Positions 25,939-49,804 of a stretch of DNA of 64,000 bases are shown piece by piece. A program made the position numbers and the translations under genes. Source of the DNA: Phytophthora colocasiae (taxonomy: Eukaryota > Oomycota > Peronosporomycetes > Peronosporales > Peronosporaceae); assembly GCA_018806915.1 (NCBI GenBank), contig JAGKQI010000069.1:744001-808000 (forward strand). The letters run 5' to 3'. Each line of letters opens with the position of its first letter. Positions within the stretch are counted from its first letter, which is position 1. Under the pieces are notes generated by a model. The model saw only the letters and a list, made by a program, of their open reading frames with translations. It did not search any database and was not told the origin of the DNA.

Positions 25939-26397
25939 TGTAATGGGTCTACTTAGACCCACTAGGTGGCGTACACGTGCGCTTGCGTGTATGAGGAAGC
26001 GTGCAAATAGATTAGACTTAATTTAAGTATACTTATTTAAATAAGTATAATTAAATCAAATATAACTAAATTAAACTGCAAAATACCGTAAAATGAGAAC
26101 TGTTATTGAATTTGGCATAAGCCAATTACGGACCTCCTAAAACTGTTTGTTATCTATTTCTAAAGGATCTGCCAACGTGTGTTGGCAGAAACTCTGCTCA
26201 TTGATTGGTAGAAACCCGTTACTTTCTACCAATAATATGCACAAATGCACACGAACCACCCAATAATGTGGTTCGCCCATGTATCCTTTGGTGTGTACAG
26301 CACACCAAGGTCTGAGGCCCATTTCCAACCTCTAACAGTTATCCTAACTATTAGAGTTACAAGTGGTACAACCACTTGTACGTGTAACCCCGTTACA
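25939..26397 (-). repeat. D1 3' LTR, 459 bp
   Basis: In window orientation it runs TGTAATGGGTCTAC to ACCCCGTTACA. The right terminus is a 15-bp palindrome (TGTAAC CCC GTTACA, one flank G), and the left end holds TGGGTCTACTTAGACCCA, an 8-bp hairpin. The interior is AT-rich (26000-26160) with several short palindromes. The other LTR is outside the window, so the boundary at 25939 rests on loss of A3 homology and the TG start. Confidence 0.75.
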
Positions 26398-26411
26398 CCA
26401 TCCCCCCGTTA
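26398..26411 (-). promoter_or_regulatory. D1 polypurine tract
   Basis: On the minus strand AACGGGGGGATGG abuts the LTR, a strong purine run at the position needed for plus-strand priming. Confidence 0.8.
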
Positions 26412-26498
26412 AGATTCGACGTATCGGTCTCGATACGTCAATCAACAGAACTTGACAAGACCGTCAAGTTCCCAAGAGAAATCCGAGTTGATTTCGCA

Positions 26499-28010
26499 AT
26501 GGACTCGCCAACGCTCACGTCTCCGTCCGCTTCTGCGGACGCGCAAGCCTCTCCTGCTGCTTCTGCAGCAGGAACAACAACCTCAGCAGTGCCTACTAGC
26601 ACTGCTGCTTCCAGCGGTTCGACAGAGAAGCTCTCTGTCACCGACTACCATGCTCTCCACAAGGAGAAGCATGCGAAGAAGACTTCTTCTTCGCTAGCAG
26701 GGATCAAACACCCTGTTGTTCCTCTCAAAGAACTCTTTGGAGAGGACTATGAAGACATCGTCGACTACTACGACGACGATGTCGAGGAGGGAGAGCTTGA
26801 TGACAAGTCTCCCGCTCCCGTGTCTTCGTCCGAAGACACGTTCAACCCACTCGTGGGGTCTCGACGACCTCGTGTTGAGGTCTCGGACGCTTCAAGCTCG
26901 AAGCGTCCGCGCAGTGATGACGAAGCGTCCCCCATGTTGAGGGCGCTCACTGCTCCACGCACTGATCCTCCAGTGCGTGCACCATGGCTGCCAACTGAGG
27001 CACAGATCCATGTGTGATCCGGTGCTAGCTCACCACCGAACCCGATACTGTTGTATGCATGCAACAGTATCAACGACGACGACGTCGCCGCTGAGATTGT
27101 CTTTGAGTCCGAGACTCAAAGACGCGACTACTATATCGGGCTCTTCCATGAGCTCCGATACTATGCAGCGAAGAAGACTTCGCGCAAGAGCAAAGTGCCC
27201 GAGTGGCAGGCACTTTGTCAGTCGTGGAACGCCTTTGTTGAAAACTTCAACAAAGACCCGAAGGCATATCGCGAGCGCGTTGCTGCGGCTCGTGAACGCC
27301 TCCGTGATCAGTCCATGGAAGCGGGGATCCCATGTGCCATTCCCTTCGGCACACCCTGCCCGTGTTGCCAACCCTGGGCAACACGTCTCTCAGAAAGTGA
27401 TCTCCTGGGGTACACGGTCGTCCGTGTACCCGATCACATCAAGGAGCTTCGTGGTCGTCTTGAGCCACGCGGAGCTCCGAGTGCTGTGGCTGACCGCAGC
27501 GCTCCTCATGCAGGGCTTACCCCTGCAAGTTATGGTGGGCTTCGTAGGCCCTTACCGTTTCCGGAACGTCCTCCATCAGGACGTTCCGCGGCTCCCATGA
27601 ATCTCGATGGGGAGGAAATCCTCTCCAACGAATACGAAAACGAACCCCTTGAGAGTTCGTTCTCTTATGAGCCACAATCCGCTCCACAATCCAGCGGATC
27701 GCTCCACGCGCGTCGCGCAACGTCGGTGGAGGGGGTGGGAACACTCCCTCCGCATGGTCAACGCTATGACCATGACAATCGTGCCCTGCACAATCGAGTT
27801 GCTGCGCTGGAGCAGACACAGAGCGCTGAGATAGCTGCTCTGAAGCAGGAGGTTCGTGTCCTCCGTGCTGAGGTCTGCGAGGCAGCTCAGACAGCCTCGA
27901 ACCTCTCGTCCGGTCTTGGGACGAGAGTGAACCGGTTGATCGACCGTGTCGACGGTCTCGAGAAGGCCTTCCAGGCCTATCGCACTCCTCAGTCGGACTA
28001 CCAACCCTAG
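26499..28010 (+). CDS. D1 antisense ORF (aORF), 503 codons with one TGA
   Basis: ATG at 26499 (MDSPTLTSPSASADA) to the stop at 28010, opposite to pol. A single in-frame TGA at 27015-27017 breaks it, probably a CGA-to-TGA change. Order: Ser/Ala/Thr-rich start; acidic segment (DYYDDDVEEGELDD); a helical domain (YYIGLFHELRYYAAKKTSRK, WQALCQSWNAFVENF) with a Cys cluster (CAIPFGTPCPCC); a linker; a C-terminal coiled coil (VAALEQTQSAEIAALKQEV). From 27517 on it lies opposite the pol integrase tail and chromodomain. B1 and C1 have the same kind of ORF in the same place. Function unknown. Confidence 0.72.
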
Positions 28011-28482
28011 GTAGTCCGTGCTGCACGTACGGCTTCAACCGCCCGACGTAGAAGGTCGGGTGGAGCCTCATGCTGGACGGTATGTCCAGCCGGTACGCGT
28101 TGCCGTGCCGTTCAAGTACTTTGAACGGCCCAATGAATCTTGGAGCAAGCTTGCTTGCTCCAAAGTCAGACACTGCATGTCTAGGTAGGTTTTGTGTAGC
28201 TAACAAAACTAATGAACCCTTTTCGAATTCATTTGTGTTGCCTCTACCAACAGTATCAGCGTTCAGCTTCTGTCGATCGACAGAAGCTGCGATAGCATCT
28301 TGGACAAACCGTATGACGGCTTGTCTTCGCTGGACAAAGTCTAGCGCACCCGAGCTGAATCCTTTCAGCTTGTCGCCCTTGTCAGCAGCAGGCCCTGCCT
28401 GATCGCTATCATCTCTCATGTCTGTTCCCGGCACAGACATCGCGCGCTCGTCCCTGCTCGAACGAGACGTCGCACGCGTCAC
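27517..28482 (-). pseudogene. D1 pol C terminus: integrase tail and chromodomain
   Basis: The GPF-type integrase C terminus (KLAPRFIGPFKVLERHGN, HPTFYVGRLKPY) is followed by a low-complexity linker of about 110 residues and a chromodomain (WIVERIVAHKR, VRFRIRWRGFPPHRDSWEP). The integrase core is missing: a deletion joins it to the RNase H fragment at about 28515. Confidence 0.85.
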
Positions 28483-28726
28483 CGCAGCTGATAGTGTGCT
28501 GCTATCAGTTGCATTCTGCGGTTGTTCGGACGCAACCGTCGGAATTTTGCGAGTGCATACTTCATGGCAAGGAGCTCCTTGTCATACGGGATAGTTACGC
28601 TCAGCTGGCTTCAGCTGACGCGATTGATAGTAGACTACACGATCACGCTCTTCGTGATCGTGTTGCATCAATGCACATCCGATTGCAAAGTCGGATGCAT
28701 CGCACACTACGTGGAATGGACGATCT
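28483..28726 (-). pseudogene. D1 RNase H fragment, left of A4
   Basis: It reads RPFHVVCDASDFAIGCALMQ, then YQSRQLKPAERNYPV and KELLAMKYALAKFR, the Ty3 RNase H start. At about 28515 it jumps into the integrase C-terminal region, so the rest of RNase H, the zinc finger and the catalytic core are gone. At 28726 it is cut by A4 and resumes at 57401 with APILAVTDQD. Confidence 0.85.
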
Positions 28727-30141
28727 TGTGGTGTAGTGGATCCGCTAGAATGAGCAGGGATCCAACGTTCACACACGGCGCCCAGACACTGACTAACGGA
28801 GGGGGTACTCCGATAACCGTGGGGTTGCTGAGGCTCACCTTGTGTACCCGTCAGTGGGCGGGATCTGCTCTCTCAAGAACGGGAGAGTGTACACAGGCGT
28901 GAGGGCTTGAACGTCCTTGGCGGGGACTTGGGAGGTTGGACGTGCGTGGGCATTCCTGCACACAGGTCCTGGTTGGGGGGGTCTTGGTCTTGGACTCGAA
29001 GATCTTGTGGATCCTTGGATCCGGGGTTGCCTTGGTGGGTGTGGGGCTCCTTTTCCTTTCCTTTACTGTCTTGCTTGCCGCCTCCTGTAGCGGTTGGTCT
29101 TGAGGGTGTGGATATATCGAAGGATCCTACGGTTAAGCAATCAACACCGTTGGATCCGGGGTCTTCACTAGCGTAAGGTAAGCCGGCCAAATCGGGGATC
29201 CGGTCTTAGCTGTATCTAGGTGTGCGAAGAAACTTGCAGGTAGACTAAGGGGAGGCCAATACACTATCCTCTTCCCTTGTCTTGAGTCCTGAGGAAATCC
29301 ACTTGCGCACTAGAAGGTAAATTCGATTCTCTGATTTATGGCTATCCAGTTTCTCATCCTGTACCCTATCTTTCCCATCGCAAATCTCTATCTAAGATCA
29401 TGCTGGCTCTCCTCCAACTGCTTCACCATGTTGATGTCATAAACCTTGAGGATCCGGGTTTGGATCCGAGAAACTAGCTTCGGGATCCGGCATCTGGATC
29501 CGAGGATCTTGGATCTTGGGGATCTGGCATCTGGATCCGAGGATCTTGGATCTGGATCTCTGGATCTTGGATCTTAAGGATACGGCTTCAGGATCCGAGG
29601 ATCTTGGATCTGGATCTCTGGATCTGGATCTCTGGATCTGGATCGTGGGGATCCGGCTTCAGGATCCGAGGATCTTGGATCTGGATCTCTGGATCTGGAT
29701 CTTGGAGATCCGACTTCAGGATCCGAGGATCTCGGATCTTGGGGATCCGGCTTCGGGAGCCGAGGATCTTGGATCCGGATCTCAGGATCTGGATCTTGGA
29801 CATCCGACTTCAGGATCCGAGGATCTCGGATCTTGGGGATCCGGCTTCGGGAGCCGAGGATCTTGGATCTGGATCTCGACGTCCGGATCCGAGGATCTTG
29901 GGTCTGAAGGATCCGCACTTAGGACCGCTAGATCCGCACTCAGTGCCGTGGGATCCGCACTTAGGACTGTGGGATCCGAACTTAGGTCAGCCAGGCCAAG
30001 TGGATCCTAACTTAGGGTCCGCCCTAGAGTAGGTACCCAGTTCCAGGGATCTGTCCTTATCGTAGCACCACTGTCGCACGTCACCCATCATCGTGGTCGT
30101 TCTGCGTCCTGTCCGGCTTGATTTGAATCCACTTCACCACA
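28727..30141 (-). repeat. A4 3' LTR, 1415 bp
   Basis: It has the family A termini (TGTGGTGTAGTGGATCC … GAATCCACTTCACCACA in window orientation). A GGATCC-rich array fills 29450-29900. It is close to the LTR at 55931-57396 outside the array. Confidence 0.94.
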
Positions 30142-30399
30142 ATCGCCCCTGGGACGAGGTTGTTGCCGCACAACGGCATCACGTCGTTCCCATACAAAAT
30201 TCCAATTTGGCTCGTCATTCCTCAAATCGCGACCTCTGCAAAATGGATCGGCCTGCCGACGACTGTTCCTCCGCGTACACCACCGTGTTCTTCGGTCAGG
30301 ATCGCTCTGCGTCTCAACCTCCATGTCCCCATTGTGACCACGCTCCTTCCGATCCCGCTGTAGCCGCGACTCCAACGGTCCCGGATCTGGATCCTGTGT
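30142..30399 (+). other. A4 upstream frame of the antisense ORF
   Basis: Equivalent to A2 21261-21518. It carries the overlapping MDRPADDCSSAYTTVFFGQD frame (ATG at 30244) with CPHCDH, which runs on to about 30560. Confidence 0.55.
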
Positions 30400-33362
30400 A
30401 TGCTGCCGTTACTTCCCTCCAGTCTCTCTCCGATGGATACGCTGAGATGCAGGCCAGCTACCAACAAGTGCTCCGGGATCTCACTTCAGCGCGGCGACAC
30501 AATGAAAGAACTCCATGGTCTGTTGCAGCCTCGTCTGGACCTTGCTCAAGCGTTCATTGACTTCGCGCAGCGTCGGTATAATGTTTCTCAAGCTGCTCTC
30601 CGGCTGGCGAAGCAAAGGAAGCGGAAGCGGTGCAAGATCTGGATCGGCTCAAGGATCACTTGCGTGAGCTCGACGTCCTCAAGGCCCAATACTCGGATCT
30701 AGAGGTCTCTTCAGCAGAAGCCTATGCTGTCTTACAGGACTATGCAGTCGGACTCGAGCGGCAGATTGCTGGGGAAGACGTCTCGGCGGAGGATCCATCC
30801 GTGGTACGGTTGGCTCAAGAACTTGAGCATCAGCGTGAAGAATCTTCGGAACTGTTAGAGCGTTCAACGGAATTGGAGGAGAAGTTGAAAGACGCGGAGA
30901 CCGCGCGAGATGCGGCCTTACTCGAGCAAAATCGCACCAGTGTCCAGCTCGCGGAGTCAGCTATCCGTTGCGACCAACAAGCACGCAAGATTGAAGATCT
31001 TCGGGCCCACCGTGACCAGCTACGTGAATCGCTCAAGCAGCTCCCCAATCAAAATCTCGTCAAGACTGTCGAGTCGCTCAAACTGGATCTTCATGTTCGG
31101 AACGAGAGGGTCAATGAGCTGGAGAGTCTTCTCGCCAAATCAGAACGTCGACGTGGGGAACTCCATCGGGTTCATACGCATACTGTCCAGAAACTCGACC
31201 GGGCCAGCGAAAACCTGGTGCGTCTGACGCAAGAGAACCTCAACGCCCGTGAAGAGATCGAGCATCAACAGAGGCGGTCTGAGAATAACGTATCCAAGCG
31301 TCAGAGCGCCGAGAAGAGTCTCCAGAGGGCCGAAGATGATCTGCCGAAAGTAAAACGTCAACGCGATCGGGCGGACCAAGCCAGAGAGAAGGCCGAACGT
31401 GAACGTGAGCTCGATCGGATCCGGAACCAGTCGTCAGAACAGAGGAAGATACGTGCGGATCTGGATCGGATCCGCCTCGAGCGCGACGAGGCTGCCCGGG
31501 CGTCCACAGCAGCGATGCAAGAGCTGGACAAGGCCACGCAGAAGATCTCCACAATAACCCTCGAACGCGATCAGGCCAGGCAGATCTTCGCCGGGAAGGA
31601 TCAAGTTATTCGGCACCAAGGGATGGAGATCCAGCGCTTGAAGAGTGAATCGGAGCAGCTGGCTGCGTCGTTGGCACGGGCAGTGACCAGCGAAGAAGAC
31701 CTCAAGCGTCTTCGCCACGACCATCAAGGTCTCAAAACGAAGTATGACGCGCTCGAGCAGGAACACCTCGCCCTGGAAGAAGAGCATCGCAGTGTAATTG
31801 ACGAGCGTACGTCGGCCCTTCGTAATTTGGCCTCGATCGCCTCTATGGCCATGCGCAGTTCCTCGAATGCCCCAAGCGCGCAGTCTGAGTCTTCTACTTC
31901 CCAAGAAGGTTCTTCCGCCAAGCGTCGTCGACGCGAAACTCCTGTCCCAACAGAAGAGCCGTCGCACAAGATATCGCGTCAGGCTGATCCCGCAGATCCT
32001 TCTGCCGCGGTGTCCAAGCCTGCGCCTGTTCCCGTTTCCAAAACAGCAGGTGATGCGACTGACAATCCGGATCTCGACTTCGGGGACGTGGCGCAAGAGC
32101 GACCGGGGGAGGATCAAGACTCGGCGGATCCCAAGCGTGTTCCATCTCCGGACAAGTCTGCTGAGGCACCCCTGCCGAGTGCACTCTCAGAGATCCCGGA
32201 TCCGACAGCTCCCGCGAAGTCTTCCGCTACCGCTGCCAAACCCCCTAAGGGATCACAGGGTTCCGGTGAGGGAGGTCCAGCTGGATCCGGTGCGGGAGAC
32301 GACCCAGGATCCGGCTCGGGCAGCGAGTCGGAGGAATTTGATGAAGAACAGTTGAAGGCCGTCATGTCGCGCTCTCGGTCGGAACTGCGTCGGCGTCCGT
32401 GGGGACGGGTCTGCGTCTGCTCCCATTGAGATCCGAGACGCCCCCACTACCCAATCCAGTGTTGCCTCCAGCCCTTCACGTTCTGCGTCCCCCGAGGTTC
32501 ACCAGACGGATTCTCTCGAAAGAATTGTTGGGCTTCAGTTCGAGGCGTACGGCCCACTAGAAGAGTTTGTTCCAGCTGTTCGGGATCCACGCGAGATGTC
32601 TCCCGAAGAGGTGGCCCCTTGGATCGCAGACCAAGTCAGCCTTCTGAGTCTGCAAACACTCTCTGCCGGTGGCCTGACCGCTTGTTATCCCCAGGGTGGC
32701 TGTTTCCCCTTCGTGTCCGTCGTGGTGCTATGGATCCGTCCAGCTACGCTCCAGATCTAATCTCCAAGGCGCAAATTACCGAGTTGTACGCGACGGAGCC
32801 ATGGAAGGGTCTGGGGACCCAGTCCCCGCCTCCTTATACCTTTCAAGCTGACTTGTCGCCCCATCTCGCGGAGATCCTAAGCTGGTATGACGCGTTTGAG
32901 GCTGCCAACCTGCAAGCGATCTGGGAATGCACGCACTCGTTCCCCATCTCTATGGAGCTTCGGAAGATGGACAATTGGTTCACAAGCTTCTATCGTCGCC
33001 GAAAGAATCGCGGATTCCATGCCCGGAGCAACTACCGCAAGCTTCAGAGCAAGATCTTCGAGAGGATGCGCCTGACCGGGTGTTGCGACTTGGATCTGTG
33101 GTTAGACCCACACTTCGTCCACTTCCCCTTACCGACGGAAGACGTCACTTGGTATCCTGGGGCTGAGGCTGTCGACGCCGGAGCGGATCCTCCACGGAGC
33201 CTCTTAGCCGCCCTCGAAGATTGTGATCGCCAAGATCCTTGGCGTACCCACCACCGGTCTGGATCCTCTCACCCCAGCCTTGGCACTAGCCGACTCTCCA
33301 TGAAGTTCGTCCGGTTACTGCCTGATTTTGATGCTGATGCCGCCAGGGCCAGAACTTTGTAA
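30400..33362 (+). pseudogene. A4 antisense ORF, broken
   Basis: Same protein as the A2 aORF, over 95% identical by eye. One base lost near 30615 (AAAGG for AAAAGG) breaks it after LRLAKQ. The coiled-coil frame then runs 30630-32429. A short deletion near 32395 (RRRPWGRVC for RRRSSGDGSAS) and a further shift near 32690 separate the C-terminal domain (32619-33362, DLDLWLDPHFVHFPLP). So the protein cannot be made whole here. Confidence 0.85.
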
Positions 33363-33815
33363 GCAGCATTGCGTAACTCCTAATATTTTCTTGTCCGTCT
33401 TCTGTCTTCTTCACCTGATATCCATGTCCTCCATCTTCAGTTTTGCTAAGACACATTTCGAGATCCAACTTCCAAAATCGAGGATCCGAGGATCCGGCCT
33501 CGGGATCCGGAGATCCAACTTCCAGAATGGATCCGCTTCGAGGATCCGAGGATCCAGCCTCGGGATCCGAAGATCCAACTTCCGAGACATATCCCATTAT
33601 GAGCCCCGAGGATCCAGGTAGAAAATTCGTCCCAAACTCGAGCTCTAGACGGGATCCGAGCGTAGGTTCTGATCCTGCTTTCCAGCCCTCTCCAGAAATC
33701 GGTCTTCTTTTCTTCATAAACAAACATACATCGCGTCCACTCGCAGTAAACTACCAGTCTTCTCTTCTCCACACTGACGAGCGCCCTCACCAGTGCAGAT
33801 CTACCCCCGTCGCCT
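33363..33815. repeat. A4 spacer with short GGATCC array
   Basis: Equivalent to A2 17621-18299 but with only three or so array units (33470-33610). No separate gene is seen. Confidence 0.8.
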
Positions 33816-35593
33816 ACTCTTCTTCGTGCGACTGCATCGCTTGGAACCGGTTCTTTTTGCTTCGTTCTTGGAGGAATTCATGCAGTAATGCACCGCAGTT
33901 CATATCCGCTTCGTCCACCCAAGTGGGATTCTCATATCCCTTCCAGAAAACTTGGAACTCTCGTCGGATCCGGCCGTATCGGGTGGGTCGTCCTGTCCGG
34001 ACGTCCGTGATCCTCTCGACTTCGAACTCATCGTCCTCCAGATCACGATCCCAGCTGTCCTCCGGTAGCAAGGCTTCGTCGAAGTCTATACGATCCGTCT
34101 CGTCCACCATCAACTGGATCTTCGGTCGATCTGGAAATGTCCTGACTGGCTTCAACTTGGAGATGTGCACCACCGGAAACAAATGATAGTCTGTACCGGC
34201 GATCTCCAATCGAACCGTGTACTCGTTCGTCATTTCAGCCACACGGAACGGTCCATGCCACAGGTGAGCCAGTTTCTTGGCGTATCCCTCCTTCACTCTG
34301 TCTAAGAACAGCCACACTTGGGATCCGGCCTCGATGGGGTGTTGCGTCGCCGTCTCGTTCTGCCGGTCGGCACGATCCGAGATCGCCTGCTTCAGGCGGT
34401 CATTCACCTCAGCCCTGGCCAGTTGGTAGTGTCGCTGGATCTTATACCTCGAGCGTCGTGGATCTGTATCTCGACGTCCGGTATTCCCCACGGAGAGCGT
34501 TGCTTCCAGAGTCGTCTTTGGATCCCAGGTAGAACGGCGTGTCGCCCCTAGTCCGGTCTTGTGCAGTGTTCAAGGCAAATGTCAAGCGTTCGGCATACTC
34601 GTCCCAATCTCTCTGGTCGGGATCCTGAACATACATCTTGATTGCTCGAGTAATCGTCTGCACCATCCGTTCAGCCGTGCCGTTCGACTGTGGCCAATAC
34701 GCCATAGTGGCTCTCTGGCGCTGGCCTAGGATCCGGTTGAAAGCACGAAAGAAGTCGGACATGAGCCCGGGTTCTCGGTCGTGCCGGATCACCTGGCTGG
34801 CGCCGAAACGACGAAACACACAGATCTCATAGGACTCCGCCACCGCTTGTGCCGTTCGCAAGTTATTGGCATTGACGATCACGTAGCCGGTAAAAGAGAT
34901 CCACCCATACCAGAAGTTCGGTATTCCCGTTCTCGGATCTTGGGAGCGAGGGTATGTGATCCATGGTGATCACTTGAAACGGGTAAGTGGCTTGAATGTT
35001 GCCTGGCGACACACCACGGATCGTAGGTCGCCCCTTGCCCGTCTCACATCCACGCATTCTCCGACGAACTGTTGCACAGATCTGAAAAGTCCTCTCCAGT
35101 AGAAGTGATCCTTGATCCTCTGGTACGTGCGGCCAATCCCTTGATGACCTCCTTCTAAACTGCTATGATAGCGATGCAGCAGGTCCGTCTGGAGCGTCTC
35201 CGGTACAACCAGTCGTAACAACCCATCTCGATCGGCTTCGGCCCTTCGCGAAGGTGCACAATAGAACAACAATTCATCTTCGTCCAACTCGAAATTGTCT
35301 GCTAGCAGACGGCACGTCTTGGCTTCGGCCGCAGTCAGATCCGTCAGCTGTCCCCGCAGGAACGACTTCAGGTTGGAGATCCATGTTTCTTCGTCCTGTG
35401 CTTGTCGGATCCGGTCGGTCCTCAGCCGTTGCACGGACTCCTCGTCGAGTACTCGGGGTCGCCCCTCTCTAGCTTGTCTTCGAGTAGCAACTACACTGAT
35501 CCGTGGTGTCGGATCCTCGGATCCCGATGTCAGAATCTCATCCAGCCGATTCAGAGTGACAAGATCGTCGCGACCCGCCCCTTGGTCGATTGT
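33816..35593 (-). pseudogene. A4 integrase and chromodomain
   Basis: From the right: linker end (DQGAGRDDLVTLNRLDEIL), H2C2 finger (GGHQGIGRTYQRIKDHFYW, with TAC where A2 has TAA), integrase core in three frames because of small indels near 34470, 34880 and 35040, GPF segment, and an undamaged chromodomain (RYGRIRREFQVFWKGYENP, then TWVDEADMNCGALL). It is split from the rest of pol by B1 at 35594. Confidence 0.9.
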
Positions 35594-35902
35594 TGTAACG
35601 GGGTAAGAGTTACCGTCACTAGCGTACACTGTAGATAAGAGGAAGCTCGTAATAATAAGCTCAAGTCTTGTCTTTTAGGGTAAAATCAACTCTGTTTATG
35701 TATTGGACGAGGCCGGAGGGCCCCCTTGCCCTTGTGAACCACTCAAATCTAAGTCTGTACCTGATTGGATGAAATGGGTCTGGCTCCCCACTTTCAACCA
35801 ATCAGAACATGACAGCAGGTCACACGCTAGCCGTGTGACTGCACCTACTTTAGTATATGTATCTATGTAGCTTCTACCTACTTATGTAAATGGCCCTTTA
35901 CA
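35594..35902 (-). repeat. B1 3' LTR, 309 bp
   Basis: TGTAACGGGGTAAGAG … ATGGCCCTTTACA in window orientation. The termini can fold: GTAAC…GTTAC at one end, TGTAAA…TTTACA at the other. It contains CCAATCAG at 35799-35806 and, in sense direction, a TATA-like CATATACTA. Confidence 0.95.
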
Positions 35903-35918
35903 TCACCCTCCTCTCTAA
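35903..35918 (-). promoter_or_regulatory. B1 polypurine tract
   Basis: Minus-strand AGAGAGGAGGGTGA abuts the LTR, the expected plus-strand primer site. Confidence 0.8.
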
Positions 35919-36022
35919 GTTGCGCTTAAGTAACTTAAGCGCGGACAGAACTCTCGAGAACACACTCTTAAAAAACGGCGACAGGTCCGACGACAACACT
36001 TGGCAGCGAGCGCCGAGCGACG

Positions 36023-37456
36023 ATGGCGATGGCGAACCCAAGTGACAGAGACGCCGGGCGGCCGACGCTGAATCCGGCGCCGACGCTCGTGGCGGCGCCA
36101 CACGCGATGGACCACGAACTCAAACCCTGGGAACCTGAATCACTCGACTCGATGAAGCAGTACTTCACATGGTACCGCGCAGCGAAGAACAAGGGTACCA
36201 GCCACTCTTACTCGCACGACGCTCTCCAGCGTTCGTGGTGCGCCTTTATTCGTCGCTGGAACGCGACTCGACGCGAAGGGCGTCCGTTCGCGTCGTGGCT
36301 CGGAGCACGGGAGGAGCGTCGAGGCGAACACTCCATGGCGGACCTTCGGGAGCGCATCTGCGGCATGGCAGAGCGCGAGTGGCGCCTCTGCTACGTTCAT
36401 CTGGTCGAAGGCTGCGAGAACTGCGAAACGACTCGCGATCGGCCGACGCGGGACGAATGGGAGAACCAGGTGCGAACCTGGCCTCTTTCGGAAGACGAGC
36501 GGCGCTGGATCGGACGCTTCGAGCGTTCGCGCTCGGAGCTGCAGCAAGCGCGCCTACGTCGTGGACGTGAGCGCTCTCGGAGACGTAATCGTCATGACAG
36601 TCGCGGCCGAAGTCGCCGCGACCCTTCGCCGAAGTTTCATCGCAGCCGCAGTCGTGATCGAGGACGGCCTTCGGCTGGGGAACGCGGCTCTCCATCACGT
36701 CGTCGTTCGCCTTCGCCAGCGCGAGTGTGGACTCATACTCGCGCACAACATCCGGGATATCCTGCAGCAGGCGCCTACGCGGCTCCCACGTATCCTCCGC
36801 TGGCGAATATCCCAGCCAGCGGACGCGATAGTGCTTTTCGGGAGTACGCGCGTGGTTTCTCTTCGTCTTCGACGGCGTGGCCCTATCGCGAGGAACTTCC
36901 TCGCGACTCCGGCGGACATCATGATCTACGATACGCTCGGCAATCCAGCGCCGGTCTCCAGCCGCGTCAATCAGCGGGGGCGGACCATCCCGACGGTAGG
37001 GCGGAACATTGGGGCGCGACCCTTCGACTCGAACAGTCGCCGGTTTCGTCGGTTTCGTCGGCGTTGTCGACTCAGCAGCTACCTGCGCGCTCGGATCCTG
37101 CTGCGTCTGTGCAGCGGGTGACGATTGAGCAGTACCGGTTAATGATGGCCGAGGCGGAGCAGGCCCGGAACGATGCGCTGGACGCGCAGGATCTTGCGGA
37201 GAGCGCTCGCACTCAAGCGAGCGCGGCCGAGGTAGCGGCCGAAGCGTCTCAGCGTGATCGTCGCGCGCTGGTGGAGCGCCTCCGTCGACTGGAGAGGGCT
37301 GCGTTCGGGGCACCGCAGGCGGAACAGTCTGCGCGTAAGCGGCAGGGGCTTGGGCCAAGCCGGAGTCAGCGTCGGCGTCATGGAAGATCGGACTACGAGC
37401 CCGCCCGCGGCGCTGCGGACGGGAGTCGGGGACAACAGCAGGAAGATACGGCTTGA
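36023..37456 (+). CDS. B1 antisense ORF (aORF), 477 codons, RS-rich with C-terminal coiled coil
   Basis: ATG at 36023 (MAMANPSDRDAGRP), unbroken to 37456. Order: helical domain (MKQYFTWYRAAKNKGTS, ALQRSWCAFIRRWNA) and a Cys pair (CENCE) near residues 40-140; an Arg/Ser-rich stretch like the RS domains of splicing factors (RERSRRRNRHDSRGRSRRDP, RSRSRDRGR, SPSRRRSPSPAR) near 175-235; a linker; a coiled coil (ARNDALDAQDLAESARTQAS, LVERLRRLERAA) near 375-450. About 1.2 kb is antisense to the C-terminal pol region including the chromodomain. It is similar in layout to the D1 aORF. It sits in a nearly intact, young element. Function unknown. Confidence 0.75.
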   Translation: MAMANPSDRDAGRPTLNPAPTLVAAPHAMDHELKPWEPESLDSMKQYFTWYRAAKNKGTSHSYSHDALQRSWCAFIRRWNATRREGRPFASWLGAREERRGEHSMADLRERICGMAEREWRLCYVHLVEGCENCETTRDRPTRDEWENQVRTWPLSEDERRWIGRFERSRSELQQARLRRGRERSRRRNRHDSRGRSRRDPSPKFHRSRSRDRGRPSAGERGSPSRRRSPSPARVWTHTRAQHPGYPAAGAYAAPTYPPLANIPASGRDSAFREYARGFSSSSTAWPYREELPRDSGGHHDLRYARQSSAGLQPRQSAGADHPDGRAEHWGATLRLEQSPVSSVSSALSTQQLPARSDPAASVQRVTIEQYRLMMAEAEQARNDALDAQDLAESARTQASAAEVAAEASQRDRRALVERLRRLERAAFGAPQAEQSARKRQGLGPSRSQRRRHGRSDYEPARGAADGSRGQQQEDTA

Positions 37457-39545
37457 GACGCCCGACGTAGAACGTCGGGTGGAGACGCATAGCAGTAGGT
37501 ATGTCTAGCGTGTAGGCGTCCCCCAGCACTTTAATAACCTTGAATGGACCGATATATCTTGGCGCCAGCTTATTCGCGCCAAGGTTCGTAATTGCTGTCG
37601 CTTGGATTCCGGTGGTCGACAGAAGGACTCGGTCACCCTTGTGGAAAACGCTCGTGTTCTTCCGGCCTCGCTGGTCTGCGTATTCCTTCTGCTTGTCTAC
37701 CGCAGACTGCAGCGCATCACGCACGAATATCGTGATGGCTTGACGACGTAACATGAACTCCGATACCGCTGCGGAGTCGATCGGCGAAGCAACTTCGCGT
37801 GGGGCGAAGTTGGCCGCTGGTGACCCGGCAGGGTCAGATGCGGGCGCGGTGTCAGTTAATCTTCTAGCCTTCGAGCGCGTCCGGGATGCAATTCCGCATG
37901 CGGCTGTTGACGTAACCGGCAATTCCGCGCCCACCGGTACTGCTACCGGTGGAACCGACGCCACAGTGATGTTGCGATTCCCTCGCGCCTCGGCTTCACT
38001 CGACACTAGTGCCGGGCGGGTCGGCACTGCATCCATTTCTCCCCCACCAAGAGTGGAGCGTGTGGAGTCGGGAGAAGTCCCGAATGCGAGCGTCGCTGGA
38101 ACGCGCGGATGCCGCGCGTTGTTGATGAAGAACGGCGTCAAACCTGTCGACGCATGGACTGCGTTGTTGATAGCGAACTTGGCGAGCGGCAGGAACGTAC
38201 TCCACGACGGGAACGACGTGGCGTAGCTTCGAAGGACGTCCTCAACGACTCGGTTGACGCGCTCCGTTTGTCCATCCGTTTCAGGATGAGCTGCCGTCGA
38301 CATCAACAAGCGCGTACCAAGCAGTTCGAACAATCGATCCCAGAAGGTCGATGTAAAGCGAGGGTCGCGGTCAGAGACGATGGATTCCGGCAGGCCATGA
38401 TGCCGGAACACGAGGTCAAGGAATAGGGACGCCGTCGTTTCAGCTGTCACTTGGGCCTCGACTGGAGCAAGACGGACCATCTTGCTAAAGCGATCGACGA
38501 TGACAAGGGCGCCCGTGCGACCCTGATCGTCCGATGGAAGGCCGAAGACGAAATCCATGCTAACGGATCGCCACGCTTCCGTGGCGATGGGCAACGGGCG
38601 CAACGGAGCTTGCGATGATGGGGCTGGCTTGACACGCTGGCAAGTCTCGCAAGTCCGAACCCATTTGCGAATCCACTTGTACATCCTAGGCCAATAGAAG
38701 TCCCTCGAAATCGCCGCGAATGTCTTCTCGCGGCCCAAGTGGCCACCCACAGGAGCGTCATGATATTCATGGACGAGACGAGCACGAAGGTCGTCATCGG
38801 CGGGGATGACGACGCGCGGAAGATCGAAGGTGTCCATTGTATATGTCAACAATGGGCCATCGAGTTGGTATCGCTCGATGTGACTGCGCGTAGGGCGTGT
38901 CAGTTGCTTCGATGTCTCCGCACTCGGAGTACGGAGGTGCGCGATGATGTTGGCGTAGAACGGATCGTGCTCGTACGCGTCAGCAATCTGCTGACGCAGG
39001 GCCAGGACTGGAGAAGTGGTCGTCGCGTTGATACCCAGAGCGACGCAACAGGCGCAGCTTTCATCTTCGTCATCGTCGTCAGCAAGTTGCTGATCGACTT
39101 GTCGCCGTGGGTCGTAGTCTGGGCGGCGGGACAGCGCGTCGGCAAGGATGTTGTTCTTGCCGGGTTTGTAGTGCACCACGAAGTTGTATTCGGAGAAGAA
39201 CGAGAGCCATCGCGCCATGCGCTGGGACAGGTGTGGAGTCTTCATCGCGGTGCGCAGCGACGCGTGATCTGTATACACGGCAAACGTCTGTTCTCCGAGC
39301 AAATACACCCGGAATTTGATCAGGGCGTAGCGCATAGCGAGGAGTTCCTTGTCGTGGACGGGGTAATTCTTCTCGGCAGGCTTCATTTGTCGTGACTGGA
39401 AGCTCACGGCGCGCTCGTGGCCCTCATCGTCGAACTGCATCAGCGCACAGCCGATTGCGAAGTCGCTCGCGTCGCACACGACATGGAACGGTTTCGTGTG
39501 ATCCGGAAGCATCAGGATCGGCGCCTCCGCCAAGCTCTTCTTCAC
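36246..39545 (-). CDS. B1 pol, second part: RNase H, integrase, chromodomain
   Basis: 1099 codons. RNase H (FHVVCDASDFAIGCALMQ; DHASLRTAMK; NNILADALSRRPDYD) at about 15-145. H2C2 finger (HDAPVGGHLGREKTF, CETCQRVKP) at about 255-300. Integrase core (SMDFVFGLPSDD, IVSDRDPRFTSTFW, HPETDGQTERVNRVVED) at about 325-500. GPF tail (LAPRYIGPFKV, HPTFYVGRLKPY) at about 660-700. A Pro-rich linker of about 150 residues precedes the chromodomain (YRVRWLGYSPAEDTWEP). The last 165 residues after the chromodomain look non-functional and lie opposite the aORF. It was joined to the RT part before one base was lost near 39543. Confidence 0.93.
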   Translation of the reverse strand: MKKSLAEAPILMLPDHTKPFHVVCDASDFAIGCALMQFDDEGHERAVSFQSRQMKPAEKNYPVHDKELLAMRYALIKFRVYLLGEQTFAVYTDHASLRTAMKTPHLSQRMARWLSFFSEYNFVVHYKPGKNNILADALSRRPDYDPRRQVDQQLADDDDEDESCACCVALGINATTTSPVLALRQQIADAYEHDPFYANIIAHLRTPSAETSKQLTRPTRSHIERYQLDGPLLTYTMDTFDLPRVVIPADDDLRARLVHEYHDAPVGGHLGREKTFAAISRDFYWPRMYKWIRKWVRTCETCQRVKPAPSSQAPLRPLPIATEAWRSVSMDFVFGLPSDDQGRTGALVIVDRFSKMVRLAPVEAQVTAETTASLFLDLVFRHHGLPESIVSDRDPRFTSTFWDRLFELLGTRLLMSTAAHPETDGQTERVNRVVEDVLRSYATSFPSWSTFLPLAKFAINNAVHASTGLTPFFINNARHPRVPATLAFGTSPDSTRSTLGGGEMDAVPTRPALVSSEAEARGNRNITVASVPPVAVPVGAELPVTSTAACGIASRTRSKARRLTDTAPASDPAGSPAANFAPREVASPIDSAAVSEFMLRRQAITIFVRDALQSAVDKQKEYADQRGRKNTSVFHKGDRVLLSTTGIQATAITNLGANKLAPRYIGPFKVIKVLGDAYTLDIPTAMRLHPTFYVGRLKPYLPAVVPDSRPQRRGRARSPIFHDADADSGLAQAPAAYAQTVPPAVPRTQPSPVDGGAPPARDDHAETLRPLPRPRSLECERSPQDPARPAHRSGPAPPRPSLTGTAQSSPAAQTQQDPSAQVAAESTTPTKPTKPATVRVEGSRPNVPPYRRDGPPPLIDAAGDRRWIAERIVDHDVRRSREEVPRDRATPSKTKRNHARTPEKHYRVRWLGYSPAEDTWEPRRRLLQDIPDVVREYESTLALAKANDDVMESRVPQPKAVLDHDCGCDETSAKGRGDFGRDCHDDYVSESAHVHDVGALAAAPSANARSVRSSAARLPKEARFAPGSPIRPASADRESFRSSRSLRPDERSRGATRALPCRRCAPEGPPWSVRLDAPPVLRATTRTDALRVESRSSDE

Positions 39546-41917
39546 GAATCAAACGCAGCTTGGTGGTCGGGGGACCACAGCCACGTCGCGTCCTTTTTCA
39601 GCAGTGAAGACAGTGGTTGGATCAGCCCGGCGTAGTTCTTCGTGTACTTGTGGAGATAGTTCGCCAGACCCAACCACTGACGCAGCTCCGTGGGGTTCTT
39701 GGGAGTCGGCCAAGAACAGATCGAGGTGACCTTCTCCGGATCTGCGCGGACGCCGTCCTTGCTCACGTGACAGCCGAGCACGGGAATCTCCGGCGCACAG
39801 AAGATGCACTTCTTCAAATTCGCGTACAGCTTGTTCTCGCGCATCACTTGGAATACCTGCCTCAAGTGTCGAAGGTGAACCTCGAGAGCGCTGAGGTTGC
39901 CCTCAGCGCGGCTGTGCACGAAGATGTCGTCGAAGTAGCTCGGCGCAAAGTCGCGGAGCGGGCGGAGTACGTGAGACACCATGCGGTTGAACGTGGCTGG
40001 GGCGTTCTTCAGTCCCTGTGGCATCACGAGCCACTCCCAAAGCATTCCGCTGGGGGTGCTTACTGCCGTGAGGGGTATGTCCCTGGACCTCATCAAGATC
40101 TGGTAGAAGCCATCCATCAGGTCGATGGCGCTATAGATGACGCTACCTGACATGGAGTCGAGGACCATGTCCTTCCGCGGGATCGGGGTCTGCGCCGGGA
40201 TGGTAGCGTCGTTCAGCTTATTGAACGCGTGGACGATGCGCCAGCCGCCTGTCGCCTTCTTCACACAGAACGTGGGGCTAGAGTGTGGGGAGGTGCTCTC
40301 GCGGACGTGACCGGCCAGGCGGCGTTTTTCGAAGAACTCGTCGATGGCCTTGACCTGGTCTCGCGGCAGTGGCCACTGCCGCGTCACGCAGTACTTCGTC
40401 CCGGGCGCGAGGTCGATCTCGTGCCAAACTCCGCGGTCCGCCGGAAGCTCGGCGGGGATCTCATCCGGGAACACGTCTTGAAACTCGCGCGCGGTGTCGT
40501 AGACTGGGTTACCCGACTCCTTCAGCGCCTCCCAGGACTGTGCTGCGAATCGTTCTTCGCGGGCAGACTTTGGTTCAGCATTCCCCGGTCGCGACGACGC
40601 GTCGTCACCGCTGAGTGCGTGAAGACCCTCGACTGTCGCGCTGGCCTCGGTGACCAAGCACACTTGCTCGATGTCACCGGCCTTGAGATCGCGAAGGAAG
40701 CTTTTCCACGAGAGGCCGGGGAGCCGCGTGTTCCCGCGAGCGTCGCGAGGGGGACTCGCGACTTCGATGACCCGCGTGCCCCGTGGAGCACCCTCCATGT
40801 ATTCGACAGCGCAGACATATTCTTTCTGGGGAGGTGCGGCGTCAGCGTTGGTCCGTGGCTTGAGACGCCGTTTGGATTCCCTCCTCCTCCTCGAAGACCT
40901 CGAGCATGAGCTCGAGGTGGACGGCTCACTGGTACTGGACGACACATCGTCGCTATCGCTGGACAATATTCCACCCTCCTCTAGGTGCGGGGTGTCGCGT
41001 GCGTCCGCACCGGAAGTATGCGGGAGCACCGCTTGCTCGACCGCTTCGTTGATATTCGGGAGCCCACGTCGCTCGACCGCCTCGTTGGATCGCGGGAGCC
41101 GCTTTCGCTCGACCGCCTTCGCAGCAACCTCGCTTCGCTGCGAGGTTCCGCGTTCATTCGTCGGTTCATCCAACAACACCGCACACGCCATACAGAGAGG
41201 GCCATCGCTCGCTCTGTGTAGGGCATGCGTCGTGGACCGTTCGTCCACGACGGTGACGTGGGGCCAATCAGTAGGAGCGACCAGGAGATGCGTGAACACT
41301 TCACTCACATCGTAGTCGGCTCGGCGCTTGACTGACCGGGCCAGCCAGTCGATTTTCGGTTGATACCGTGCCAGCCACGGTATGCCCAGGATGCAGTCGA
41401 ACGCGTAGTTCATCTCGATCACCAGAAAGTCGTCGTTGCTACGGAACCCGTCGAACGTGTACGGCAGCGTGATATCACGCCGTGGGACACGGTGTGGCTT
41501 GCCGTCAGCGAGCTTAATGACGACGACGCCGGGACCCTCGCGGACGGGTACGCTCGAGGGAAGGAGCGGTAAACACGAGGCGCGGAAGAAATTGTTCGTT
41601 GCGCCCGAATCCAGGAGCGCACGGAGAGGACGCCGCGCGCCGGCGACGTGTAGGCTGACGATGATCAGTCTGTGGTCGCCGCTGGCGGTGGTGGCGTTGA
41701 AGTGTGCGTGAAGCACGGGAGGGCTAGGAGATCGGGCTGCCACCGGGGGACCCGGACCTCCGTTCCAACCAGTAGGTCGCCCCGCACCTACTGGTCCCGG
41801 TCGTTTTTTGGATGAGCGACCAGAAATTCGTCGTCGGCGTGAGCGACTGCAGCGTGCACCGGCGCAGGCGCGCGGCATACAGCCGCGCGATGACCCAACT
41901 TCCCACAACGATGGCAA
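39542..41917 (-). CDS. B1 pol, first part: protease and RT
   Basis: It starts in the -1 frame inside the gag end. Protease active site LLDSGATNNFF near residue 100, second motif CILGIPWLARYQPKIDW. After an acidic/Ser-rich linker, RT shows the chromovirus-type motifs PADRGVWHEIDL, SPHSSPTFCVKKA, YSAIDLMDGFYQILM (motif A), MPQGLKNAPATFNRM (motif B) and SYFDDIFVHS (catalytic FDD). It ends at LWSPDHQAAFDS plus a stop caused by one missing base; the next frame resumes at once with KKSLAEAPILMLPDH. Confidence 0.93.
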   Translation of the reverse strand: MPSLWEVGSSRGCMPRACAGARCSRSRRRRISGRSSKKRPGPVGAGRPTGWNGGPGPPVAARSPSPPVLHAHFNATTASGDHRLIIVSLHVAGARRPLRALLDSGATNNFFRASCLPLLPSSVPVREGPGVVVIKLADGKPHRVPRRDITLPYTFDGFRSNDDFLVIEMNYAFDCILGIPWLARYQPKIDWLARSVKRRADYDVSEVFTHLLVAPTDWPHVTVVDERSTTHALHRASDGPLCMACAVLLDEPTNERGTSQRSEVAAKAVERKRLPRSNEAVERRGLPNINEAVEQAVLPHTSGADARDTPHLEEGGILSSDSDDVSSSTSEPSTSSSCSRSSRRRRESKRRLKPRTNADAAPPQKEYVCAVEYMEGAPRGTRVIEVASPPRDARGNTRLPGLSWKSFLRDLKAGDIEQVCLVTEASATVEGLHALSGDDASSRPGNAEPKSAREERFAAQSWEALKESGNPVYDTAREFQDVFPDEIPAELPADRGVWHEIDLAPGTKYCVTRQWPLPRDQVKAIDEFFEKRRLAGHVRESTSPHSSPTFCVKKATGGWRIVHAFNKLNDATIPAQTPIPRKDMVLDSMSGSVIYSAIDLMDGFYQILMRSRDIPLTAVSTPSGMLWEWLVMPQGLKNAPATFNRMVSHVLRPLRDFAPSYFDDIFVHSRAEGNLSALEVHLRHLRQVFQVMRENKLYANLKKCIFCAPEIPVLGCHVSKDGVRADPEKVTSICSWPTPKNPTELRQWLGLANYLHKYTKNYAGLIQPLSSLLKKDATWLWSPDHQAAFDS
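41768..41809 (-). promoter_or_regulatory. -1 ribosomal frameshift signal, B1 gag/pol
   Basis: On the minus strand the heptamer A AAA AAC (41803-41809) is in register with gag (CCA AAA AAC). Seven bases later comes a perfect 10-bp hairpin ACCAGTAGGT…ACCTACTGGT (41786-41795 with 41768-41777, 8-nt loop). The gag stop TAG (41788-41790) lies in the 5' arm. The protease/RT frame is exactly -1 to gag. Slippery site, spacer and stem match the classic retroviral arrangement. Confidence 0.88.
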
Positions 41918-42345
41918 GTTAGTGAACGGGAATTGCGACTGCGTCGCGAGTAGTACCGCCGGTTATTCTCCGCGGCTTCGACAGCGTCAATTTCCATTGG
42001 CTCGGGCATCGCTGCCCGAGCGTCCGCCGGTAATTGTCGAGAGTACGAAGCGGATACCGTATAGTCCTCGCGCAATGCGAGGGCGAACGCTTCTTCCAGC
42101 GACTTCGGCTCGGAGCGCGTGAGAGAATATCGCGTCATTCCTTCTCGCATGCCGAACACGAAGACGTGGACCTGCGAAGCCATGTCGATGGGGCTCGTGA
42201 CGATGCACGAGGCCAGGTGACGAGTTTTCTGCACGTAGTCGCGCATAGACAGCTTGCCCTGCTTCAACGCGAAGAACTCCGCACGCATCCGCGATTCATC
42301 TTGCGGAGGCTCGAACGCAAGTCGAAGGTCTTTCTAGAGACTATC
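41788..42345 (-). CDS. B1 gag, C-terminal part (left of C1)
   Basis: It continues the capsid (ALKQGKLSMRDYVQKTRHLA, SLEEAFALALREDY), then one CX2CX4HX4C knuckle (CHRCGKLGHRAAVC), ending LVAHPKNDRDQ and TAG in the frameshift hairpin. The N-terminal part is at 50222-50683; both are in the same frame once C1 and one copy of CTATC are removed. Confidence 0.92.
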
Positions 42346-42757
42346 TGCAGCGGGGCTGCGTAGGTGTGCACGGCACAGAGGAAGTTGGGTTGACTCGTAG
42401 AGTCCTGCTTACAAGGCACTAGCCTTCGGTTCTATACAAGAACCAAGTAGTCCACTAAATACGGGACTCTCACAATCAGTGTCCCTATAATAAAGGAACT
42501 AACACTAATTATGTAAAATGCAAACTGATTTTTATTTATTTTATTGCCCTAATCCTGAATGTAACGGATTTAGTATCTAACATACTAAATCCTAATCAAA
42601 TGTAATGTGTGGCTCTGAGCTAACAGCCAGCAACTGGCTACATGTGTGACGTGTGAGAAACACTATGTGTTGTACACGGATCTGTGACTTGTGACCTGGA
42701 TGGTGTATACCACACCTATTGTAGCCAAGGCGCGCAGCGCCGTGTAACCCCGTTACA
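42346..42757 (-). repeat. C1 3' LTR, 412 bp
   Basis: TGCAGCGGGGCTGCG … GTGTAACCCCGTTACA in window orientation. Both ends are small palindromes around a GGG/CCC core. The interior has an AT-rich stretch (42490-42560). Confidence 0.95.
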
Positions 42758-42768
42758 CCCTCCCCACC
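42758..42768 (-). promoter_or_regulatory. C1 polypurine tract
   Basis: Minus-strand GGTGGGGAGGG abuts the LTR. Confidence 0.78.
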
Positions 42769-42872
42769 AAACCGTGGATACGGAGTATCTACAACTGTAG
42801 ACATAACTGCCTTGTCAAGGCCTGTCACCGGCAACTTTCCGATAAAAGAAATCTCTCAACGAGAGTGCGCGG

Positions 42873-44589
42873 GTGCGCTGGCTCAACGAGCACATTCTTC
42901 AATTCTCCCCAGCGAGCCAACCGCTCCTGAGGTGTCCAGTGACCAGGCGTCTACGCCCCAGCGCCTCAGCGCTTTCCGGTCTGGAGCCCTCGGCTCCTCT
43001 CACGCTCTCCGATTCGGAGTATTTCGCGGCGTCTCGCCTTCGCTACGGAGCGATGTTCAAGGCCAGCCCGACGTCAAGTGGTAGCGGTGGCTCACCCTTC
43101 GAGTACACGACAGCGTCGCCGACGCGCGACCCACGTCGCTCTCCTACAGAGGAAGGCGAGGTCGAAGTGGACTACGAGGAGTCCGGAACAGGGCGATGCC
43201 CATGCGTCTCCTGCTCCTGCGAGCCCTCGGACGACCCGATCTGAGCTGCGCTCTCCACGCGATCCGCGTCGGTACTCAATTCCTCGGCAGCTGCGGCAGC
43301 CCAATCCGTTCCCGGAGGGACCTTCGAGCCTCGTGCTCAACGCGTTGCGCAACGCACCACCGCTTCCTGCTCGCGATGAGCCAGAGTCACTCAAGGGAGT
43401 CGAAGACGCGATCACCAACCCTCTGGATGAGGCACAGGAGGCTTCCTGAGCGGTGCTCCAGAGTCACGTCGACCGGTCCAACGGGACATCGTGGGGACTT
43501 CGTCGCGGCGCGACTACGGCTTCGAGCCTCGCGACCCTGCCGAGCAGGTGAAGCAGTTGATGGCGCAGCCAAACCTGCATGGTTACGCCATAGGCAATCC
43601 TCCACGTACGGTGGCTGAGACTCAGCAGCGACAGGGGCTCCATGAGCGTTTCCTGACCCCGCAGGTGTGCACACTCGCCGAGTATCGGCAACGCTTAGAT
43701 AAGCAACGGCGACGGGAGTCTGTGCCTCAGATGAGGACTTATCCACTCCTGCTCCAAACCGGAGAGACCACCCGGGACTACATGGTCCATGTGGCCACCT
43801 GGGCCGAGGCTTCACGGAAGCTCGCGTCGTTTGACCGGCTCATGGAGAGCTGCGCCGAGGTGGACGTCCGCCTCGCCCGAGGTCTACTCTTCCAGTACGC
43901 GAAGATACGCGTGCGGCCCGGCCGCTTTCCTCGTCACACGACGGCAGTGGCTCCCGCCTCTCAGGCCACTATCCCTGCTTCGCAGGATGCTCCTTCAGTC
44001 TCCGAGGGAGACTCGCTGGCTGTGCCAGCCACGGACCAGAGCCTGAGCTCGGCTGCTAGTCCGTCAGCTTCTCACACTAGTGGTGAGAAGCGGGTGTCGA
44101 CCGAGTGGTCGACCTCGAGCCCTTCGGGCGCCCCCGATCTTCGCGATCAAAAGCGTCCACGACGTCAGGGCAGTCCTGCCTCAGGGACCCTTCAAACTCC
44201 CACGAGTTTTGGGAATGAGGATATCCACGCCACTTCACCAGATACTGGTTTTGACTACGGTGGCGACGCCGCGCCATCAGGCGCTCCACGTGGTAGTGGG
44301 GAGTCCCTGCTCATCGAGCAACGGCGGAGGAGGCCGATTCGCTGCGGAACGCCGTACTCGATGAGTGTGACGAGCGCTATTTGTCGCATCGCGCCTGGTA
44401 CCAACTCGATCACTCGATCGGTACTCTCCGAGTCAGACTCAGTCCCTTCAAGGGAACGTCGAGAGTGTTTGGCATTCGCATGCCCGTCTCGCTCATGACA
44501 TGGAGGAGATTGAAAGCCGGATGGCTTGGCTCGAAGGTCCTCAGTCCCTGACTGCTCGCCTGCACCAGCAGGAGCTTCCAGCTCGCTGA
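42873..44589 (+). pseudogene. C1 antisense ORF (aORF), frameshifted
   Basis: Coding is spread over two frames: 42873-43244, 43078-43449, 43491-44350 and about 44370-44589. No ATG is seen at the left end. Features in order: an acidic motif (EEGEVEVDYEE, compare EEGELDD in D1), a Pro/Arg-rich stretch, a helical domain (HERFLTPQVCTLAEYRQRLD, WAEASRKLASFDRLMES), a Ser/Thr-rich linker, and a final coiled coil (LAHDMEEIESRMAWLEG). The second half is opposite the integrase-chromodomain linker and chromodomain. Layout matches the B1 and D1 aORFs, which supports a common origin, but this copy is broken. Confidence 0.62.
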
Positions 44590-45570
44590 GTTGCGAGGTC
44601 AGGTGACGTTGCTGCTGCAGATGACGCAGCCTGGGCACGTGTCGTCGGTGCCAGCGCCTCCGCGCTCACCCCGCGGGGTCCTGATATGGCTTAAGCAAGC
44701 CGACGTAGAACACCGGGTGTGTTCGCATCCGCTTTGGCAAGTCAAGCGTGTATGCCAGGCCCTTCTTGGCCACGACCGTAAATGGTCCGATGAAACGCGG
44801 ACGCAATTTCGTCTTAAAGACATTTGACACTGCATGTGTAGGTAGGTTCTTAGCGTTTAATAAAACCTGGTCACCGACCTTAAATTCCCATACATTGCTT
44901 CTACCTTTGTATCCGCTTGTTCCTTCTGAACGTCTTGGCTTTCAGCCATCGCGTCACGTACACGGCGTAATACGCTCAATCTCACCGAGAGGAAGTCATC
45001 GACTTGTTTACGCACAGCAGAAGGGCTGATATCAGCAAGCTCGGAGTCGAGCGACGGCACAGCCTCTCCCCCACCAAGCCCAAGGCTACCGCGTGGCGGA
45101 GTGAGCGGAACGCGCGGTGCGCAAAGGCCGTTCACGTAGAACGGGGTGAAGCCTGTCGAGGCATGCACCGCATTGTTCATGGAGAACTCAACGAGAGGGA
45201 GCATAGCGCTCCAACGCTTCGGCGTTTCAGCGCATACGCTGCGGAGGATGTCCTCCAGAACGCGGTTCACGCGTTCGGTCTGACCGTCGGTCTGCGGATG
45301 GTCCGCCGTGGACATGTCCAGTCGAGTGCCCAGCACCTTGAAGACGGACGTCCAGAAGTGACCCGTGAAACGGGGATCTCGATCCGAGACAATGGTCTCA
45401 GGCAGCCCATGCTGGCGGAAGACCCGATCGATGAAGATCGTCGCTGTACCAGCACCATCGACGGTGTCCGGCACAGCCGCTAGATGAGCCATCTTGCTCA
45501 GACGGTCAACAAAGACCACCACGCCCGTGTTGCCTGCCGAGTCCTTCGGCAGGCCAAACACAAAGTCCAT
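44077..45570 (-). pseudogene. C1 integrase core, tail and chromodomain
   Basis: Core: SMDFVFGLPKDSAGNTG-type start near 45570, IVSDRDPRFTGHFW, HPQTDGQTERVNRVLED and NNAVHASTGFTPFYVNGL. One frameshift near 44925 precedes the GPF tail (FKVGDQVLLN, RPRFIGPFTVVAKKGL, HPVFYVGLLKPYQ at 44690-44890). A low-complexity linker follows, then a chromodomain at 44077-44290 (NQYLVKWRGYPHSQNSWEF). Confidence 0.88.
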
Positions 45571-45572
45571 AC

Positions 45573-48680: not shown

Positions 48681-48730
48681 GTTCCGTGTTCAAGAGCACG
48701 GAGCTCTTCGGGGCTGAGCCCCAGTGCCTC

Positions 48731-49746: not shown

Positions 49747-49784
49747 TCTCACAGAAAAACAGTCTTCAACTCAGGAGTTGGATT

Positions 49785-49802: not shown

Positions 49803-49804
49803 GA

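Follow-up and report, generated by a model that had tools for sequence, protein, structure and literature searches.

Chromodomain-bearing Gypsy retrotransposons of Phytophthora probably carry an accessory protein gene on the strand opposite pol: a real and old gene that starts from the side of the 3′ long terminal repeat (LTR) and runs into the DNA encoding the end of pol. The evidence comes from three elements, B1, C1 and D1, in a 64,000-nucleotide (nt) stretch of the Phytophthora colocasiae genome (contig JAGKQI010000069.1, positions 744,001 to 808,000; henceforth the window), from related copies elsewhere in that genome and from homologous proteins. We put the probability of this explanation at roughly 0.7; that the antisense open reading frame (ORF) is a coding gene is, taken by itself, very probable. 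The accessory gene lies reversed between the 3′ LTR and pol, with its C-terminal part coded opposite the chromodomain end of pol.

An antisense gene opposite the end of pol

Both strands of B1 are unbroken, as the preliminary description of this DNA had stated. The antisense gene is an intact ORF of 477 amino acids (aa) at 36023–37456 on the forward (+) strand, for which homologues were found, and the 3′ part of pol (36246–39548 on the reverse (−) strand; RNase H, integrase, SH3 and chromodomain) stays open across the entire overlap, which amounts to 1205 nt of doubly coding DNA. The chromodomain (36729–36947, −; Pfam PF00385, E 6.7e-10, converted to window coordinates) and the SH3_Tf2-1 domain both face the antisense ORF. 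Reverse transcriptase, RNase H, integrase, SH3_Tf2-1 and a C-terminal chromodomain are all present in B pol, which places the family among the Ty3/Gypsy chromoviruses. The 3′ LTR of B1 (35594–35902) matches a stretch at 50725–51033 with 99.7% identity over 309 nt, and a C-rich tract at its end (a polypurine tract on the sense strand of the element) lies 121 nt upstream of the antisense ATG. The second LTR-like stretch lies beyond C1: the C1 element (42346–50217) is seemingly nested in B1 (35594–51033), whose LTR-like matches flank it.

The copies of families D and C in the window are broken, and the single long ORFs earlier assigned to D1 (26499–28010) and C1 (42873–44589) do not exist as such. 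In D1 an in-frame stop (27015–27017) divides two ORFs, 26388–27017 and 27018–28010; the first part of the antisense gene (26499–27017, +) ends at this stop and the second (27018–28010, +) encodes the helical domain, linker and coiled coil. The 3′ part of D1 pol, with SH3 and chromodomain (27517–28581, −), overlaps the antisense gene by only ∼0.49 kb. In C1 the frame changes between a first open piece (42943–43449, +) and a second (43431–44498, +); the 3′ LTR region of this element (42346–42758) matches 49805–50217.

A search of the genome (92.5 Mb, 105 contigs) returned many further copies. Best-scoring matches without a stop in the matched stretch, counted by eye, numbered 93 of 122 for D (of 523 candidates, 121 were scored) and 91 of 114 for C (of 835 candidates, 114 were scored, with the second C1 piece alone as query), so that the frame is kept in copies outside the window. 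The B protein gave 36 matches, including a second group at 30–35% identity that we call family E (14 loci fetched, L009–L022, among them a divergent copy, L012, here E′). A search with E′ found 100% identity only to itself, all other matches being at ≤61% and mostly at 45–56%, and led to family F (∼47% identity to E′; loci L042–L045 fetched); two other loci fetched with F proved E-like (L046) and degraded (L047).

The antisense gene faces the chromodomain end of pol in five families, which extends the original claim. In family E this holds for the five loci whose ORFs were displayed (L009, L013, L014, L018 and L022), with an overlap of 413 nt in L014; in F (L044) the overlap is 404 nt; and in families other than B it spans 0.4–0.6 kb. 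The relative phase is identical in B, C, D, E and F, antisense codon positions 1, 2 and 3 facing pol positions 1, 3 and 2. The chromodomain in these pol ends scores above the Pfam cut-off in B, D and C and below it in E and F. A start adjoining the 3′ LTR, also claimed earlier, is seen in B1, D1, E and F, where the ATG read off the sequence lies ∼56–120 nt from the LTR end.

Homologous proteins were found for B (12), D (501, of which 120 were listed) and C (11). Among the matches listed, every homologue with a species name is a Phytophthora hypothetical protein (one, P0086, carries the name HMG box), P. citrophthora is nearest for both D and C, and identity never exceeds 86%, for which reason we take the named species to be species other than P. 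colocasiae. One gene model of 642 aa from P. fragariaefolia (P0143) fuses pol sequence to a C-type antisense stretch.

Long ORFs can arise from codon structure with no gene behind them, and other frames of the same DNA do contain ORFs of 300–390 aa. In 2000 simulations that kept the pol protein fixed and redrew its synonymous codons, however, the antisense frame of B1 acquired 8.0 stops on average and was open in 0 of the 2000; the overlap was open in 0.15% of simulations for C (L041), 7% for D (L029) and 17% for E (L014). An open overlap is thus convincing by itself for B and C, and not for D and E. Together with the codon-position bias described below, the homologues elsewhere and the shared spacing of cysteines, these simulations make a chance origin scarcely credible.

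Selection on the antisense protein and probable constraint on the shared DNA

Where it lies outside pol, the antisense protein is under purifying selection in families D, C, E and F. Variable columns among copies show an excess at third codon positions (positions 1/2/3: 33/34/76 in D, p 3e-6; 28/18/61 in C, p 7e-7), the distant pairs E–E′ (50/51/92) and E–F (61/57/91) show the same, and the ratio of nonsynonymous to synonymous change (dN/dS, by the NG86 method) is 0.14 in C (one pair), 0.31–0.41 in D (three pairs), 0.17 for E–E′ and 0.30 for F–E′. Six of seven pairs gave a value, dS being saturated in E–F.

These figures bear on the idea that the useful product is an antisense RNA, which would form double-stranded RNA with the sense transcript and act in small-RNA silencing or copy-number control. 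The same idea is raised in a review (PMC7264820), and Gypsy elements of P. infestans yield both sense and antisense small RNAs according to another report (PMC3522703). Yet codon-position bias in the antisense frame and dN/dS well below one require a protein; RNA and protein roles are compatible, and as an explanation of the gene we hold the RNA to be improbable.

Within the overlap, the antisense protein of families B and D is likely to be conserved beyond what pol can explain, which would mean that both strands are constrained. When the pol protein was frozen and synonymous sites were made random (500 simulations of the whole overlap), the antisense identity expected averaged 0.32–0.34. Identity inside the overlap was 0.45–0.58 to homologues of B (6 tested of 12 found), 0.42–0.56 to those of D (17 of the 120 listed and 501 found) and 0.38–0.77 to those of C (7 tested of 11), and lay above the maximum of the 500 simulations for 6/6, 16/17 and 4/7 of the homologues tested, respectively. 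Outside the overlap, D (0.42–0.56 inside vs 0.44–0.54 outside) and C show much the same identity as inside it. For B identity is somewhat lower inside in five of the six homologues; some of these resemble gene models with stretches in another frame, by which identity is lowered.

Several results weigh against constraint along the whole gene, and some of them speak for a different view: that the conserved gene is only the part downstream of pol, its C-terminal part being an incidental read-through tail that GC-rich codon use keeps open. Variable columns in the overlap show no significant position bias among close copies of D (8/18/12), B (33/38/42) and E (11/10/13), permutation tests on the E–F and E–E′ overlaps are not significant (p 0.08–0.23), and the E and D overlaps are those that chance can leave open. 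In addition, F and E′ each contain one stop in the overlap when read in the aligned codons of E; close copies of B (16/9/11) and E (11/14/17) lack significant position bias in the antisense-only part as well, which is short in this test; and the homologue test presumes near-saturated synonymous sites and judges proteins without their genomic place.

We nonetheless consider an incidental tail unlikely. Chance all but never opens the B1 and C overlaps (0% and 0.15%), in D the overlapped part differs between species no more than the remainder, and the overlap of C does show third-position excess among copies (11/14/30, p 0.003). The silence of the close E copies weighs little, because pol alone, where its own third position corresponds to antisense position 2, is unbiased in this family too (58/38/49), so that little can be learned from these copies. 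For B the same yardstick is biased (49/99/45) and the bias is gone in the overlap, which fits constraint from two strands but also a relaxed pol end. The assumption of near-saturation is backed by dS values of 1.4–2.3 at 53–55% antisense identity.

The opposing pol sequence of B deserves separate comment, since it had been described as a Pro-rich linker and tail whose composition looked as if set by antisense coding. The linker is indeed there: the Pro-rich stretch separating SH3 and chromodomain faces the predicted coiled coil of the antisense protein. Beyond the chromodomain, pol continues for ∼160 aa in B1 (36246–36660, −) and in four of six other copies (L023–L026); the search pattern found no match in the other two (L027 and L028). 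The openness of this tail opposite the antisense gene is possible by chance: with the antisense protein frozen, 36251–36661 stays open in 12.6% of simulations, on which account the tail may be a by-product of the antisense gene.

Possible cassette-like exchange and neighbouring elements

When E (L014) is compared in 50-nt steps with E′ (L012), the difference is 0.08–0.14 across the final 150 nt before the LTR/polypurine junction (taken as about the whole LTR, because it is from that point that E copies have sequence in common), 0.24–0.53 across the antisense gene and 0.00–0.08 in pol, beginning just beyond the antisense stop. In this one copy, E′, the antisense gene is thus a divergent block with sharp limits, while the LTR and pol on either side are similar to those of E. 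Family F (L044, L045) differs from E over the LTR, the antisense gene and ∼240 nt more, after which pol again differs by 0.00–0.08. On the simplest reading, recombination would have joined an old antisense gene, plus the pol end coded opposite, to a shared backbone; the comparison covers a single divergent copy, E′, and a single family, F. In a further F copy, L043, pol is again 15–30% different from E after a similar stretch of ∼500 nt, the renewed divergence beginning ∼800 nt beyond the antisense stop on the L014 scale; this pattern suggests further recombination.

Other elements lie nearby. An unclassified element is present in two inverted copies (18300–21296, −, and 30066–33362, +), which have long arms that are 99–100% complementary, adjoin GGATC-rich repeats and encode a long coiled-coil-looking protein (a 998 aa ORF in one copy, pieces of 615 and 310 aa in the other). 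The remains of an element with a duplicated 3′ part at 22927–24539 we take to be Copia-type from the look of the translation and its motifs.

The antisense proteins, their possible role and known systems

Families B, E, F and D encode a helical domain that contains a Cys/His cluster, then a linker and a predicted C-terminal coiled coil. In B1 the helical domain (aa 41–195; 36143–36607, +) is drawn from AlphaFold2 helices and conserved columns, with block means of 61–91 for the predicted local distance difference test (pLDDT). It contains the cluster Cx9Cx7Cx2C (aa 113–134; 36359–36424, +), common to family D, whose cluster begins with His; an Arg/Ser-rich (RS-rich) linker (aa 168–227; 36524–36703, +) also present in homologues from P. 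fragariae (P0003) and P. rubi (P0006) comes next; and a long C-terminal helix predicted by AlphaFold2, a probable coiled coil, occupies aa 368–428 (37124–37306, +). The spacing [C/H]x9-10Cx7Cx2C recurs in B1, E, E′, F and D (L029), in 8/12 homologues of B and in 91 of the 120 listed homologues of D.

The preliminary description had proposed a common layout with low similarity among the three proteins. Linker and coiled coil are indeed shared and an acidic start is encoded in D and C, as are KRPR-like basic patches. As to similarity, profiles of B/E and D match at E 2.2e-5 over 119 columns (7.4e-5 for the domain alone; reversed control 0.63), and by this comparison the two are homologous. Low similarity holds for C, a partial relative at most.

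The protein data also contain points that tell against our explanation. The Cys cluster is absent from all 11 homologues of C, and its x9 form is missing from the D1 piece in the window; C and D share only three weak colinear pieces (the start, an LRTPxPFPER motif and the coiled coil), and the central domain of C found no match in the profile comparison. Searches of Pfam, PDB and folds, together with structure models, gave no match hinting at function, and upstream stretches contained the oomycete initiator (INR) in 1/6 and the flanking promoter region (FPR) in 0/6.

Two candidate identities were rejected. The UniRef name HMG box of P0086, a D-family protein of P. oleae, has no Pfam match behind it, and profile comparison of the D and B domains with ten HMG boxes of the same genome gave no match (P 0.28 for D, 0.09 for B). 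A bZIP domain of the HBZ type has as its best candidate bZIP_1 in E, at E 0.031, scoring 14.8 bits where the cut-off is 27.6 and covering profile positions 27–49 only.

As to role, a nuclear regulatory accessory factor is judged likeliest because of the analogy with the plant genes discussed below, the RS-rich and basic stretches and the coiled coil, although we propose it only tentatively. The protein might instead limit its own element (copy-number control) or assist particle assembly through its coiled coil. Coiled coil and Cys cluster would suit a partner of Gag or integrase, and the gene lies in part on the very DNA that encodes the chromodomain end of pol; in B the RS-rich linker, and in D and C the KRPR-like patches, would rather favour the nucleus, and we rate this alternative as doubtful. 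The fullest version of our proposal joins a genus-wide antisense gene, two proteins constraining the same 0.4–1.2 kb, a nuclear regulator with Cys/His cluster and coiled coil, and movement between element families as a recombining cassette, limited by the 3′ LTR at one end and the gene's own stop at the other; so much together is conceivable, at somewhat less than even odds.

Antisense genes of retroelements are few and their use is obscure; here one such gene occurs in several element families within a single genome and, as a protein, in many Phytophthora species. Measurable selection and signs of two-strand constraint make the role of such a gene testable by comparative genomics and offer a natural system for the joint evolution of a chromodomain and an overlapping gene. 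Many Phytophthora ‘hypothetical proteins’ may be transposon proteins.

Antisense ORFs adjoining the 3′ LTR are known from plant Gypsy elements, where they are termed aORF-3R (Grande gene23, RIRE2, and Retand ORF4 with TRP28), and from Boty of Botrytis; PMC7264820 and PMC11963269 report them in most copies, with no role assigned. In Grande the protein is nuclear and the gene has a promoter to itself (PMC7264820), and Retand is classed as a non-chromovirus (PMC11963269). The Phytophthora gene is also an antisense accessory ORF adjoining the 3′ LTR: in B, D, C, E and F its location is between the 3′ LTR and pol, its direction opposite to gag-pol, and the encoded protein is conserved in sequence (antisense-only dN/dS 0.14–0.41). 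It differs in that its elements have a chromodomain, that it overlaps the end of pol and that Transposase_28 (TRP28, PF04195) found no Pfam match in B1, the D1 and C1 pieces, alignment A5 and the further proteins scanned, nor in alignment A7, for which the check covers the first 25 of 29 Pfam families. From other Ty3/Gypsy chromoviruses, with which they share reverse transcriptase (RVT), RNase H, integrase, SH3_Tf2-1 and chromodomain, the Phytophthora elements differ by the extra antisense gene. The open-access literature consulted, with subscription journals mostly outside its scope, yielded no antisense ORF for oomycete chromoviruses and none said to overlap a chromodomain; within that literature the earlier impression stands that no such overlapping gene has been described in chromodomain Gypsy elements.

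The antisense protein HBZ of human T-cell leukemia virus type 1 (HTLV-1) has an acidic start, a basic middle and a coiled-coil end. The Phytophthora gene resembles HBZ and other retroviral antisense genes in being read from the side of the 3′ LTR and in this acidic, basic and coiled-coil layout; it differs in that its proteins have no bZIP match above the cut-off, and no common descent is proposed. The Phytophthora gene is analogous to retroviral antisense and Rev-type regulators and to Grande gene23, and is a member of neither group.

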